64,000 nucleotides of DNA from Actinomyces sp. AC-20-1 (GTDB lineage: Bacteria; Actinomycetota; Actinomycetes; Actinomycetales; Actinomycetaceae), in the NCBI RefSeq assembly GCF_023369555.1, contig NZ_JACJVC010000002.1:62001-126000 (forward strand), given 5' to 3'. The notes under the pieces are model-generated. The model was not told the DNA's origin. It searched no databases and saw only the letters and a program-made list of their open reading frames with translations. Shown here piece after piece: positions 38,477 to 43,928 of this stretch (its first letter is position 1; every line of letters begins with the position of its first letter). The translations under genes and the position numbers were made by a program.

Positions 38477-40126
38477 ATGACCACTGCTCAGATCTCGCGC
38501 CGCATGTTCGGCGGCCTCGGCGCCGCCGGCATCACGGCTCTCCTCCTCGCCTCCTGCGGCTCCAACGACTCCTCCGGCTCCGGCTCCTCCGAGGGCTCCG
38601 GCTCCGGCCAGGCCGCCGCCGCCGGCGGCAAGCTCACCCTCGCCTACAACTCCGACGGCCCGCACAAGGCCTGGGTCGAGGCCGTGTGCAACTCCGTGAG
38701 CAACACGCTGGGCATCAGCATGGAGCCGCTGCCCTTCGCCCAGTTCTCCGAGATGCGCAAGCAGATCACCGACCACACCCTCCTCGGCGCCTTCCGCACC
38801 GGCTGGCAGGGCGACTACCCGTCGATGGCCAACTTCCTCGGCGCCACCTTCCGCACCGGCGCCGGCGCCAACGACTCGCGCTACTCCAACGAGGAGTTCG
38901 ACAAGTTCCTCGACGAGGCCGCCGCCGCCAGCACCGACGACGCCGCCCTCGAGCTCCACCTCAAGGCGCAGGCCGTCCTCATGAAGGACCTGCCCGCCAT
39001 CCCGCTGTGGTACCAGAACGGCTTCGGCGGCCACTCCAACAACGTCTCCGACGTCGTCTTCAACTGGAAGTCCGTCCCCGAGTACAGCGCGGTCAAGACC
39101 ACCGCCGCCGACGGCATCATCTTCGCCAACGGTACCGAGCCGCAGAACGCCCTCATCCCCTCCAACACCAACGAGGTCGGAGGTGGGCGCGTCGTCGACC
39201 TCGTCTTCGCCAACCTCGTGCGCTTCGAGGTCGACGGCACCCCCGTCAACGAGGTCGCCGAGTCCATCGAGACCGAGGACAACCAGACCTACACCATCAA
39301 GATCAAGGACGGCTGGACCTTCACCGACGGCACCCCCGTCACCGCCGACTCCTTCATCAAGGCGTGGAACTACGGCGCCCTGCTGTCCAACGCCCACCTG
39401 TCGAGCTACTTCTACGAGGTCATCGAGGGCTTCTCCTTCGAGGAGGACTCCGAGCTCACCGGTCTGACCAAGATCGACGACCTCACCTTCACCGTCAAGC
39501 TCACCGCCCCCGCCTCCGACTTCAAGCTCCGCCTGGGCTACACCGCCTTCGCGCCGCTGCCCGAGGTCGCCTTCGAGGACATGGAGGCCTTCGGTCAGGC
39601 CCCCATCGGCAACGGCCCCTACAAGGTCGACAGCTGGACGCACGACTCCGAGATCGTCCTTTCCAAGAACGCCGACTACAAGGGCGGGGTGACGGTCGCC
39701 AACGAGGGTGTCACCTTCACCATGTACACGGACTACGACGCCGCCTACAACGACCTGCTCGCGGACTCCCTCGACGTCATCGACGCCCTGCCGGACTCGG
39801 CCCTGTCCACCTTCGCCGAGGAGCTCGGTGAGCGCGCGATCAACCAGCCGGGTGCCGTCGTCCAGCTCTTCGCGATCGACTGCGAGGCCGAGCACTTCAA
39901 GATGGACGAGGAGGGCCGCCTGCGCCGCGCCGCCCTGTCCCGGGCCGTCAACCGCAAGGAGATCTGCGACACGCTGTTCTACGGCACCCGCACCCCGGCC
40001 TCCGACTTCACCTCCCCGGTCATCGCCGGCTGGACGGAGGACGTGGAGGGCAACGAGGTCCTGGACTTCGACGAGGCCGAGGCCAAGAGCCTGTGGGAGC
40101 AGGCCAACGCCATCGCCGAGTTCTGA
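38477..40126 (+). CDS. Oligopeptide ABC transporter substrate-binding lipoprotein, circularly permuted
   Basis: Type II (DppA/OppA family) peptide-binding lipoprotein, 549 residues. Twin-Arg SRRMFGGLG and lipobox LLLASC place the lipid-modified Cys at 27, followed by a Ser/Gly linker. The next 160 residues (KLTLAYNSDGPHKAW, FRTGWQGDYPS, LPAIPLWYQN, VVFNWKSVPEY) are what normally forms the C-terminus of this family. Only after residue 209 comes the usual start of the mature protein (IIFANGTEPQNALIPSNTNE), running to NRKEICDTLFYG and ending LWEQANAIAEF. The family order is therefore inverted without loss of either part. Near-identical 15-bp direct repeats bound the moved 486-bp segment. The frame is intact and the operon complete, so it may be functional. 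Confidence 0.85.
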   Translation: MTTAQISRRMFGGLGAAGITALLLASCGSNDSSGSGSSEGSGSGQAAAAGGKLTLAYNSDGPHKAWVEAVCNSVSNTLGISMEPLPFAQFSEMRKQITDHTLLGAFRTGWQGDYPSMANFLGATFRTGAGANDSRYSNEEFDKFLDEAAAASTDDAALELHLKAQAVLMKDLPAIPLWYQNGFGGHSNNVSDVVFNWKSVPEYSAVKTTAADGIIFANGTEPQNALIPSNTNEVGGGRVVDLVFANLVRFEVDGTPVNEVAESIETEDNQTYTIKIKDGWTFTDGTPVTADSFIKAWNYGALLSNAHLSSYFYEVIEGFSFEEDSELTGLTKIDDLTFTVKLTAPASDFKLRLGYTAFAPLPEVAFEDMEAFGQAPIGNGPYKVDSWTHDSEIVLSKNADYKGGVTVANEGVTFTMYTDYDAAYNDLLADSLDVIDALPDSALSTFAEELGERAINQPGAVVQLFAIDCEAEHFKMDEEGRLRRAALSRAVNRKEICDTLFYGTRTPASDFTSPVIAGWTEDVEGNEVLDFDEAEAKSLWEQANAIAEF

Positions 40127-40182
40127 CACCCACCTGAGACCGTCCCTCAGGCCCCTGGCGGTCTGACGGTCCCAGCCTCACC

Positions 40183-40224
40183 GTGCACCGGGCCCGTACC
40201 CTGCGAGGTGCGGGCCCGGCGCAC
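40183..40224 (+). promoter_or_regulatory. Strong intercistronic hairpin between binding protein and permease
   Basis: GTGCACCGGGCCCG (40183-40196) pairs with CGGGCCCGGCGCAC (40211-40224) at 13 of 14 positions around a 14-nt loop. Hairpins in this position commonly stabilise the upstream message or cut read-through, giving more binding protein than membrane subunits. Confidence 0.6.
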
Positions 40225-40280
40225 GTCGGGACCAGCCCGACATGCCCGTCCCACCCCCGACCCACCCAAAGGAGGCGCCG

Positions 40281-41210
40281 ATGGTCCGCTACGCCGGACG
40301 CAGGCTGCTGCAGATGATCCCCGTGTTCTTCGGGGCCACCCTCCTGATCTACGCGATGGTCTTCGCACTGCCCGGAGACCCCGTCGCCGCCCTCGGAGGC
40401 GAGCGCGCCCTGAGCCCGGCCGTGCAGGAGCAGATCCGCGCCAGCTACAACCTGGACAAGCCCTTCCTCGTGCAGTACCTGCTGTACCTCAAGGGCGTGT
40501 TCACCCTCGACCTGGGCACGACGCTGCGCGGCTCGCGCCCCATCGTCGAGGTCCTGGCCGGCGCCTACCCGGTGACCATCAAGCTCGCCCTCATGGCCCT
40601 GACCTTCGAGGCCGTCGCCGGCATCACGGTCGGCTTCATCGCCGGTGTGCGCAAGGGCCGCTGGTTCGACGCCACCGCCCTCGTGCTCTCCCTCGTCGTC
40701 ATCGCCGTGCCGACCTTCGTCATCGGCTTCCTCCTGCAGTTCTTCATCGGCGTGCGCCTGGGGTGGCTGCCGGTCACCGCAGGCAACAGCCCCGGTTTCA
40801 AGGAGCTGCTCATGCCGGCCCTCGTGCTCGGCGCCGTCTCCTTCGCCTACGTGCTGCGCCTGACGCGCACCGAGGTCGCCGAGAACCTCTCCGCCGACTA
40901 CGTGCGCACCGCGCGCGCCAAGGGCCTGTCCGGCACCCGCGTCATGGTCGTCCACGTCCTGCGCAACTCGCTCGTGCCCGTCATCACCTTCCTCGGCGCG
41001 GACCTCGGCGCCCTCATGGGCGGCGCCATCGTCACCGAGGGCATCTTCAACATCAGCGGCGTCGGAGGCACCCTCTACCGCGCCATCCTCCAGGGTGAGG
41101 GCCCCACCGTCGTGTCCTTCACGACCGTCCTCATCCTCGTCTTCATCATCTCCAACCTCGTCGTGGACCTGCTCTACGCCGCTCTCGACCCGAGGATCCG
41201 CTATGCCTGA
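40281..41210 (+). CDS. Peptide ABC transporter permease, DppB/OppB type
   Basis: First membrane subunit of the peptide importer, 309 residues. It opens MVRYAGRRLLQMIPVFFGATLLIY, has the external PGDPVAALGGE loop, and carries the ATPase-contact loop DYVRTARAKGLS...LRNSLVPV. Six TM segments are visible, ending with LDPRIRYA, the usual OppB terminus. AAAGGAGG precedes ATG 40281. Its end overlaps the start of the next gene by 8 bp. Confidence 0.93.
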   Translation: MVRYAGRRLLQMIPVFFGATLLIYAMVFALPGDPVAALGGERALSPAVQEQIRASYNLDKPFLVQYLLYLKGVFTLDLGTTLRGSRPIVEVLAGAYPVTIKLALMALTFEAVAGITVGFIAGVRKGRWFDATALVLSLVVIAVPTFVIGFLLQFFIGVRLGWLPVTAGNSPGFKELLMPALVLGAVSFAYVLRLTRTEVAENLSADYVRTARAKGLSGTRVMVVHVLRNSLVPVITFLGADLGALMGGAIVTEGIFNISGVGGTLYRAILQGEGPTVVSFTTVLILVFIISNLVVDLLYAALDPRIRYA

Positions 41211-42159
41211 CAACCAGCACACCCTCGCCCGCCCCGGCCAGGAGCGCTACGTCGCCGAGATCGACGAGCAGGGCCTGGGCGCCGTCGACGCCGTCTCCGA
41301 CGAGTCCGCCCCCTCCTCCATGTGGGGCGAGGCCTGGAAGCAGCTGCGCCGCCGCCCGATCTTCTGGGTCGCCGCCGTCCTCATCGTCGGCGCCCTCCTC
41401 CTGGCCATCGCCCCGGGCCTGTTCACCCGGGTGGACCCCACCTTCTGCCAGCTGCGCGACTCCTACGGCCCCGCCACCGGCGGCCACCCCTTCGGCTTCG
41501 ACCGCCAGGGCTGCGACATCTTCTCGCGCACCATCCACGGCGCCCGTGCCTCCGTCACCGTCGGCGTGCTCACGACGCTCATCGTCGTGCTCATCGGCGC
41601 CGTCATCGGCTCCCTCGCCGGCTTCTTCGGCGGCTGGCTCGACGCGCTGCTCGCCCGCTTCACCGACATCTTCTTCGCGGTGCCCTTCGTGCTGGCCGCC
41701 ATCGTTGTCATGCAGATGTTCAAGGGCCGCTCCTCCATCGCCACCGTCGTGCTGGTCCTGGCCATCTTCGGCTGGCCCCAGATCGCCCGCATCACCCGCG
41801 GCGCCGTCATGAGCGTGAAGAACGAGGACTTCGTCACCGCCTCGCGCTCGCTCGGATCCAGCCGGATGGCGATCCTCGTGCGCCACGTGCTGCCCAACGC
41901 CGCCGCTCCCATCATCGTGACCGCGACCGTCCAGCTCGGCGCCTTCATCGTCTCCGAGGCGACCCTGTCCTTCCTCGGCGTCGGCCTGCCGCCCTCGATG
42001 GTCTCCTGGGGGGCGGACATCGCCTCCGCTCAGGCCGCCCTGCGCGACCACATCTCCGTCCTCCTCTACCCGGCCGGGGCCCTGGCCCTGACCGTCCTCG
42101 GATTCATCATGATGGGCGACGCCGTGCGCGACGCCCTCGACCCGAAGGCCCGCAAGTGA
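41203..42159 (+). CDS. Peptide ABC transporter permease, DppC/OppC type
   Basis: Second membrane subunit, 318 residues. A 40-residue soluble leader precedes the N-terminal OppC module (WKQLRRRPIFWVAAVLIVGALLL). The extracytoplasmic HPFGFDRQGCDIFSRTIHGAR segment is the family signature (HPLGTDxxGRDxxSR), and the EAA loop reads EDFVTASRSLGSSRMAILVRHVLPN. It ends DALDPKARK. The stop overlaps the ATPase GTG as GTGA. Confidence 0.93.
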   Translation: MPDNQHTLARPGQERYVAEIDEQGLGAVDAVSDESAPSSMWGEAWKQLRRRPIFWVAAVLIVGALLLAIAPGLFTRVDPTFCQLRDSYGPATGGHPFGFDRQGCDIFSRTIHGARASVTVGVLTTLIVVLIGAVIGSLAGFFGGWLDALLARFTDIFFAVPFVLAAIVVMQMFKGRSSIATVVLVLAIFGWPQIARITRGAVMSVKNEDFVTASRSLGSSRMAILVRHVLPNAAAPIIVTATVQLGAFIVSEATLSFLGVGLPPSMVSWGADIASAQAALRDHISVLLYPAGALALTVLGFIMMGDAVRDALDPKARK

Positions 42160-43928
42160 GTACCGCGAACACCCCCACCACCGAAGGCACGGACACCACC
42201 GCACTGCTCGAGGTCCGCGATCTCGAGGTCGCCTTCCGGTCCTCCACCGGGCTCGTGCCGGCCGTGCGTAAGGCCAACCTCACGCTCTACCCGGGCCAGT
42301 CCGTCGCCATCGTCGGCGAGTCCGGCTCCGGCAAGTCCACGCTGGCCTCCGCGGTCATCGGCCTGCTGCCCGGCACCGGCCGCGTCACCGGCGGCACCAT
42401 CACCTTCAACGGCACGGACATCACCCACGCCAGCGCCCGCGAGTACCAGGCCCTGCGCGGCAGCGAGATCGGCCTGGTCCCCCAGGACCCGATGAGCAAC
42501 CTCAACCCCGTGTGGTCCATCGGCTTCCAGGTCAAGGAGGCCCTCAAGGCCAACGGTCTGGCCGGGGTCGCCGACGACCGCCTCGCCGCCCTCGCCGCCG
42601 CCGAGAAGGGCGAGGAGGTCTCCGCCGGCGGGCGCATCGACGTCGACGAGCAGGTCGCCCTCCTCCTGGAGGAGGCCGGTCTGCCCGACGCCGCCCGGCG
42701 CGCCCGCCAGTACCCGCACGAGTTCTCCGGCGGCATGCGCCAGCGGGCCCTCATCGCCATCGGCCTGGCGGCCCGCCCCCAGCTGCTCATCGCCGACGAG
42801 CCCACCAGCGCCCTGGACGTCACCGTCCAGCGCCGCATCCTCGACCACCTCGGCGAGCAGATCCACAGCCTTGGCACCGCGATGCTGTTCATCACCCACG
42901 ACCTGGGCCTGGCCGCCGAGCGCGCCGAGCACATCGTCGTCATGCACCGCGGTCGCGTGGTCGAGTCCGGCCCCTCCATCGAGGTCCTGCAGGACCCCCG
43001 CCACCCCTACACCCAGCGCCTGGTCCAGGCCGCCCCGTCGCTGGCCTCGCGCCGCATCCAGACGGCTCACGCCGCCGGCATCCAGGTGAGCGAGGACGAG
43101 CTCGGCGTGCGCGAGATCGCCGACGACGTCGACGAGGTCCTGCGCACCGAGCACCTGACGAAGGTCTTCGACGTCCGCGGCGCCAAGGGGGAGGCCAAGA
43201 CCCTCAAGGCCGTCGACGATGTCACCTTCGGGGTGCGGCGCGGCACGACCACCGCGCTCGTGGGCGAGTCGGGCTCCGGCAAGTCCACGGTCGCCAACAT
43301 CATCCTCAACCTCCTGGACCCCACCTCCGGCAAGGTCTTCCACAATGGGGTCGACCTGTCCACGCTGGGGGACAAGGAGCTCTTCGCGCTGCGACGCATC
43401 ATGCAGCCGGTCTTCCAGAACCCCTACGGCTCCCTCGACCCCATGTACTCGATCTTCCGGGTCATCGAGGAGCCCCTGCGGGTCCACCACGTCGGCACCC
43501 GTCAGGAGCGCGAGACGCGGGTGGCCGAGCTGCTCGACCTCGTGTCCCTGCCGCGCTCGGTCATGCGCCGCTACCCCAACGAGCTCTCCGGCGGTCAGCG
43601 CCAGCGCGTCGCCATCGCCCGCGCCCTGGCCCTCAGGCCCGAGATCATCGTGCTGGACGAGGCGGTCTCGGCCCTCGACGTCCTCGTCCAGGCGCAGGTG
43701 CTGCGCCTGCTGACGGACCTGCAGACCGAGCTGGGCCTGACCTACCTCTTCATCACCCACGACCTCGCCGTGGTCCGCCAGATCGCGGACGACGTCGTCG
43801 TCATGGAGCACGGTCGGGTCGTGGAGGCCGGGCCCTCCGACGATCTCTTCGACAACCCGCGCCAGGAGTACACGCGCGAGCTCATCAACGCCGTTCCGGG
43901 AGCCTCGATCCCCCTCTACGGCGCCTGA
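42156..43928 (+). CDS. Peptide ABC transporter dual ATPase, OppDF fusion
   Basis: Cytoplasmic energising subunit of 590 residues with two complete nucleotide-binding domains. Both have Walker [10 protein letters not shown] (about residues 54 and 370) and Q-loops. The signatures are [14 protein letters not shown] and [14 protein letters not shown], with Walker [13 protein letters not shown] and [12 protein letters not shown]. An oligopeptide-type C-terminal segment ([26 protein letters not shown]) follows each. Fusion of the two ATPases is common in actinobacteria. GTG 42156 is coupled to the permease stop. Confidence 0.94.

Follow-up and report, generated by a model that had tools for sequence, protein, structure and literature searches.

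To our knowledge, natural circular permutations are mostly single old events that connect remote relatives. Circular permutation of binding proteins is already known; Tp0684 (TpMglB-2) of Treponema pallidum, designated 'Type Ic / Cluster Bc', is a natural, lipid-anchored permuted binding protein that binds ligand and whose topology its authors consider a possible adaptation to anchoring in the membrane (PMC4990184), and glycine-betaine- and molybdate-binding proteins are related by circular permutation (CPSARST, PMC2395249). Like Tp0684, the protein described here is a natural circularly permuted substrate-binding protein, and its lipobox predicts a lipid anchor. However, Tp0684 has a cluster B sugar-binding fold, and the accessible text presents one permuted family and describes no repeated permutation at the same site. 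The betaine/molybdate pair is a remote structural relation with less than 24% identity, whereas here permuted and canonical orthologues are found within one genus. Dipeptide importer DppABCDF of Escherichia coli, in which Arg383 and Asp436 of DppA grip the dipeptide, is of the same importer type, but as far as the consulted text describes it, has the canonical order, a periplasmic binding protein and separate ATPases (PMC12136057). Another close known system is Mycobacterium tuberculosis DppA (Rv3666c; 7jls, 6e3d and 8wd9). No report of a permuted DppA or OppA was found in the open-access literature, which omits most subscription journals. Thus, as far as these searches reach, what is new is the cluster C case, the presence of both orders in one genus and operon, and the repeated origin at one site. 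In contrast to single old events between remote relatives, permuted and canonical orthologues occupy one operon in different species of a genus, and the rotation was apparently made several times.

The window, that is, the whole stretch of 64,000 nucleotides that was analysed, comes from Actinomyces sp. AC-20-1. Its binding-protein gene (Table 1) has an ATG start and a lipobox, LLASC, with Cys27, which predicts a lipoprotein, and lies in an operon with genes for OppB, OppC and an ATPase. The protein scored 198.9 bits against PF00496 (gathering cut-off, 32.4), its sole Pfam match at E ≤ 0.001; a scan of NCBIfam gave 11 matches, every one far under its cut-off. It is very probably the substrate-binding lipoprotein of a Dpp-type importer, with the mature domain permuted in place and with at least four origins of this rearrangement. 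The starts of the two permease genes are our own reading: the OppB-type frame opens at 40242, and for the OppC-type gene the Pfam scan covered 41230-42159. Both ATPases of the importer are contained in one fused protein.

Table 1. Features of the permuted binding-protein gene and its operon (positions in the window)
Feature	Position	Strand	Remark
DppA-type peptide-binding lipoprotein (549 aa) with circularly permuted mature part	38477..40126	+	Two-piece match, PF00496
Signal peptide to lipobox LLASC (Cys27)	38477..38557	+	Read from sequence
Ser/Gly/Ala-rich tether, lipid Cys to folded domain	38558..38626	+	
15-bp repeat, first copy	38616..38630	+	Local, not an ancestral scar
Segment that moved (residues 51-206; C-terminal in canonical proteins), with Asp113	38627..39094	+	
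Join of native C-terminus and native mature N-terminus	39095..39112	+	Predicted ordered
15-bp repeat, second copy, 14/15	39102..39116	+	
Canonical N-terminal part, residues 213-549, now C-terminal	39113..40123	+	End lies in helix-strand loop
Permease subunit, OppB/DppB type	40281..41210	+	PF00528, PF19300
Permease subunit, OppC/DppC type	41203..42159	+	PF00528, OppC_N
Fused double ATPase: two ABC_tran and two oligo_HPY stretches	42189..43928	+	Pfam

In a phmmer search of PDB sequences, the best match of the window protein was M. tuberculosis DppA (7jls/8wd9), and the solved-structure matches shown were mostly peptide-binding and other family-5 binding proteins. The match to 7jls consists of two stretches in swapped order: window residues 213-547 correspond to chain residues 29-375, and 50-218 correspond to 378-544. 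Each part of the canonical protein was found once in the window protein, with nothing duplicated or missing, and the canonical linear order of segments is absent; the native termini are joined and new termini lie elsewhere, as in a natural circular permutant. The Type I / cluster B sugar-binding fold (Cluster Bc) of the Tp0684 kind was not what the window protein showed. An earlier note on this DNA had claimed that a cluster C binding protein was circularly permuted in frame while its Dpp operon was otherwise normal; the swapped match shows the permutation to be genuine, and the OppB, OppC and fused ATPase genes follow downstream. The C-terminal sequence LWEQANAIAEF that the note pointed out is borne out as well, and at this point canonical Actinomyces proteins read AISPF(E/S/T)G-F(T/S)IAYN. 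The moved segment is present, although its boundaries are about 51-206 rather than about 52-208. By the usual domain boundaries, the new termini would fall in the C-lobe and outside the larger N-lobe, in contrast to the note, which had put them inside the large lobe. The rearrangement is also a trap for annotation, as the best SBP_bac_5 stretch covers profile positions 2-277 in the window protein versus 2-366 in a canonical Actinomyces protein (L039), and in all four permuted proteins scanned the best Pfam stretch was a part of the profile.

Structure prediction, which had been proposed as a check, confidently gave the DppA fold for both orders, with both lobes complete. The AlphaFold models had a pLDDT of 88.8 and a pTM of 0.84 for the permuted protein and of 91.0 and 0.86 for the canonical one; in these models the helices and strands of the folded part pair one for one after rotation, with ends within about two residues. 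Residues 1-49 of the window protein had a pLDDT below 50. Asp113 of the window protein aligns with Asp445 of M. tuberculosis DppA, the ligand-gripping Asp, and among 36 permuted sequences the conservation at its position is 90% or more. The equivalents of Arg383 and Asp436 would also fall in the moved part, judging from the structural match to 1dpp (mature residues 1-344; numbering 28 below that of 8z1z). We infer that the permuted protein folds and closes on a peptide like canonical DppA, since the Asp that grips the ligand is retained in the moved segment. The membrane tether would now extend from the C-lobe instead of the N-lobe, if the usual lobe boundaries apply.

Among the matches listed, an orthologue was present in 34 of the 49 genomes of the genus Actinomyces, permuted in 29 and canonical in five (G010, G019, G025, G029 and G034); the other 15 genomes had distant paralogues only. 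The permuted genes comprise 24 with one collinear match, three whose two collinear matches lie in separate reading frames (G002, G022 and G030) and two that are further split (G015 and G045). In the window genome, the other matches were 27-30% identical, together with one of 44% over 56 residues; a paralogue on C42 is canonical, with the N-part ahead of the C-part, and C11 gave an N-part match only. A scan of named genomes, which identified the genus as Actinomyces, found 217 loci; 80 were kept, 66 of them canonical and 14 permuted (eight from Actinomyces, five from Microbacterium and one from Frigoribacterium sp. JB110). The gene order BioY-LLM-SBP-OppB-OppC-OppDF is common to permuted (L043, L044 and L046) and canonical loci (L036 and L039), where we take the two upstream neighbours to be BioY and a luciferase-like monooxygenase (LLM). 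Three of the five canonical Actinomyces loci (L035, L040 and L041) have the downstream genes only, without BioY or LLM in the fetched stretch; beside the permuted genes of G048 and G015, no match to OppB or OppC was found in the fetched stretch. A search of the family gave matches in 137 of 213 genomes, 34 of which are those of the genus; among the other 103, the 20 fetched loci were canonical, and the unfetched loci had canonical-type match ranges among the matches listed.

The same permutation, in the same helix-strand loop, was found in Microbacterium, in families f8 and f20, and in a genus of f45, which belongs to another order. The surveys used permuted queries and are thus biased toward this cut; canonical matches mostly had the N-part as one unbroken match, so cuts in the N-part would show, while other cuts in the C-part could escape. 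Segment order was read from match ranges except in fetched loci, and was confirmed in the sequence for every permuted locus used. A survey of the order (396 genomes, 174 of them matching) gave four permuted genomes outside Actinomyces among the matches listed (G276, G395, G443 and G342). In Microbacterium (g61, so identified by a 100% match to M. halotolerans), at least six genomes were permuted among 173 matching and 295 searched, and two more named species (L082 and L093) outside these genomes have a permuted gene. The permuted order occurred in two of the seven matching f20 genomes (18 searched) and in eight of the 41 matching f8 genomes (221 searched). A survey of the class (394 genomes, 110 matching) added G1273, in whose genus (g169, the f45 genus) four of 45 matching genomes were permuted, with 49 searched; this genus is probably Aeromicrobium, as the N-part of G1249 is 88% identical to that of A. 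choanae. No further permuted lineage appeared in a phylum-wide sample of 336 genomes with 11 matching. Two candidates with partial matches (G470 and G328) turned out to be canonical. In genus g85 of f8, two loci are permuted (L215 and L216) and two canonical (L217 and L218), and the two orders lie far apart in the tree; this distance suggests gene replacement between lineages. The f20 genome G342 has three permuted copies (L208, L209 and L210), two of them without a permease match nearby, and thus the permuted gene itself has been duplicated there.

The position of the cut varies little. From the conserved LW to the end, permuted proteins have nine residues in Actinomyces (24 of 24) and f8 (n = 8), ten in Microbacterium (8 of 8), 9, 9, 10 and 16 in f20, and 11-12 in f45 (n = 4); a count of zero in three f8 genes and one f20 gene was an artefact of the pattern, the true end being nine after LW. 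For canonical proteins, the spacing from LW to the following strand was 12 residues in 90 of the 121 measured. These lengths indicate that the chain was opened in one short loop each time. At the other junction, the join from VPxY to EPQ has 15-17 residues in 37 of the 38 permuted proteins measured (ten others were missed by the pattern), about as long as the canonical C-terminal tail and the mature N-terminus together with hardly any extra residues; the long lipoprotein linker was therefore left out. In the AlphaFold model of the window protein, the join is ordered, with a mean pLDDT of 97 for residues 201-210 and 96 for 211-220. The permutation left the 5' end of the gene (signal peptide, lipobox and tether) in place, as it did the genes for the permease and ATPase downstream. 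In the sample, signal peptides vary between lineages, and those of permuted genes look like those of their canonical kin, loosely so in f20; each rotation therefore probably took place behind an unchanged 5' end. Such a rotation may have begun with an in-frame duplication of the mature part to give a fused tandem, from which the first N-part would be deleted and the second C-part truncated. Among the loci collected, none had a tandem, C-N-C or N-C-N-C arrangement, and six genes whose open reading frames were long or whose matches were doubled (G417, G744, G582, G523, G1124 and G1056) had the canonical order.

For the phylogeny, the two segments were aligned separately and then joined in one order; genes that were near-duplicates or had broken frames were omitted, as were paralogues on long branches, for example L194 in the trees of 95 and 63 rows. 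In a first tree of 92 rows, the permuted Microbacteriaceae fell inside canonical Microbacterium and the permuted Actinomyces beside canonical Actinomyces, and a single permuted clade was rejected (p = 9.5e-7). A tree of 133 rows had four changes of order, three of them forced by starred branches, and one of 95 rows had five. In the bootstrapped 63-row tree, every permuted group except f20 was placed with canonical kin at 94 or higher: actP (100) with its sister actC (100), micP (100) with two micC (96), f45P (100) with f45C (94-100), and f8P (99) with two f8C (98). Forcing all permuted sequences into one clade cost 374 log units (AU p = 3e-99). In pairwise tests, with constraint trees from fast searches, AU rejected nine of the ten unions of permuted groups (p ≤ 0.0013), and all unions among Actinomyces, Microbacterium, f8 and f45 were rejected by both AU and SH. 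The union of f8 and f20 was not rejected (AU p = 0.149), and that of Actinomyces and f20 was rejected by AU (0.0013) but not by SH (0.061). A tree of the N-part only had five changes and agreed with the whole-protein tree; a tree of the C-part only (155 columns) was weakly supported and had seven changes, with micP and f8P each split. Four or more independent origins within Actinomycetota are thus supported, namely in Actinomyces, Microbacterium, the f45 genus, and f8, possibly separate from f20. Five origins are likely, and we claim the lower number on account of the f8/f20 union and of the disagreement of AU and SH on Actinomyces and f20.

The window genome is a draft of 47 contigs, so that two tandem binding-protein genes might have been merged by mis-assembly, as the earlier note had considered. 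However, the same order is present in 28 other genomes of the genus, some of which, as G024, G026 and G027, are single-contig assemblies, and in four other groups, and the chance of an assembly error is therefore negligible. The note had also proposed looking for the normal order in sister strains and had counted close homologues with it as evidence against the permutation; five Actinomyces genomes have such a homologue, but they mark the permutation as a change that became fixed in evolution and not as an error. A more serious alternative is one ancient permutation, either transferred horizontally or retained by some lineages while others reverted. The cut in the same loop across all groups and the inseparability of f8 and f20 would agree with it. 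Nevertheless, this history is improbable, given the AU rejection of the all-permuted clade and of nine of the ten pairs, the five changes on which the N-part and whole-protein trees concur, and the likeness of the sampled signal peptides to those of each lineage's canonical kin. The AU and SH tests address clades and not a permuted ancestor with reversals, but to revert exactly, a gene would have to be permuted once more at both of these joins, and a permuted ancestor followed by several such reversals is unlikely.

As to how the separate rotations arose, the earlier note had proposed recombination at a 15-bp repeat, CCGCCGCCGRCGGCA. The two copies exist; they flank the moved segment at a spacing of 486 bp and are identical at 14 of 15 positions, and the repeat exceeds the background in the window (p 0.01) and in L006 (0 of 150 draws). 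It is conspicuous only in the window and in the nearest relative (13 of 15), however; in the remaining 22 of the 24 Actinomyces loci tested 9-12 of 15 positions agree (p between 0.05 and 0.90, with the respective genes as background), p ranges from 0.11 to 0.99 in 22 permuted loci outside Actinomyces, and the permutation is far older and predates the window species. The repeat is thus a recent local feature and not a scar, and a role for it in the permutation is very improbable. Recurrence at one loop could be expected if the native ends lie side by side and new ends are tolerated in few loops, or if the new anchor point is favoured. We give about an even chance to a neutral cause, compatible with several rotations in place, in which this is the sole loop that accepts new ends and rare duplications drift to fixation. 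The short join that omits the flexible linker, its order in the AlphaFold model and the lack of a common export route among the sampled groups are in line with this; the retention of the permuted order in Actinomyces (29 of 34) and its repeated fixation speak against it, but are not decisive. With regard to export, SRRMFG in the window signal peptide resembles what we take to be a Tat motif, and SRRxFG or a similar sequence, which we presume to be Tat-like, occurs in Actinomyces signal peptides of both orders (38477-38557 in the window; canonical L032, L033 and L036). Tat export of the folded protein was rejected as the common link, since among the sampled sequences the motif is present in both Actinomyces orders but could not be made out in the remaining permuted groups. 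Recurrence by selection, in which at least four actinobacterial lineages shifted the Dpp anchor from the N-lobe to the C-lobe and so improved delivery by the tethered protein to the permease, is a more tentative proposal. The idea is similar to what the Tp0684 authors suggest for their protein (PMC4990184), and if it is true, DppA would amount to a replicated experiment of nature on how protein topologies converge.

Some further features of these genes were observed. Among the 29 permuted Actinomyces genes, the frame is broken in five (G002, G030, G022, G015 and G045; loci L037, L038, L019, L020 and L030), and the gene of G045 (L037, 7662-10308) is split by about 1.1 kb. A dN/dS above 1 was obtained in one of 36 values. 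Between the binding-protein and permease genes of the window, a 19-nt inverted repeat (89%) is present at 40182-40225, which may form a hairpin that sets the ratio of binding-protein to permease expression.
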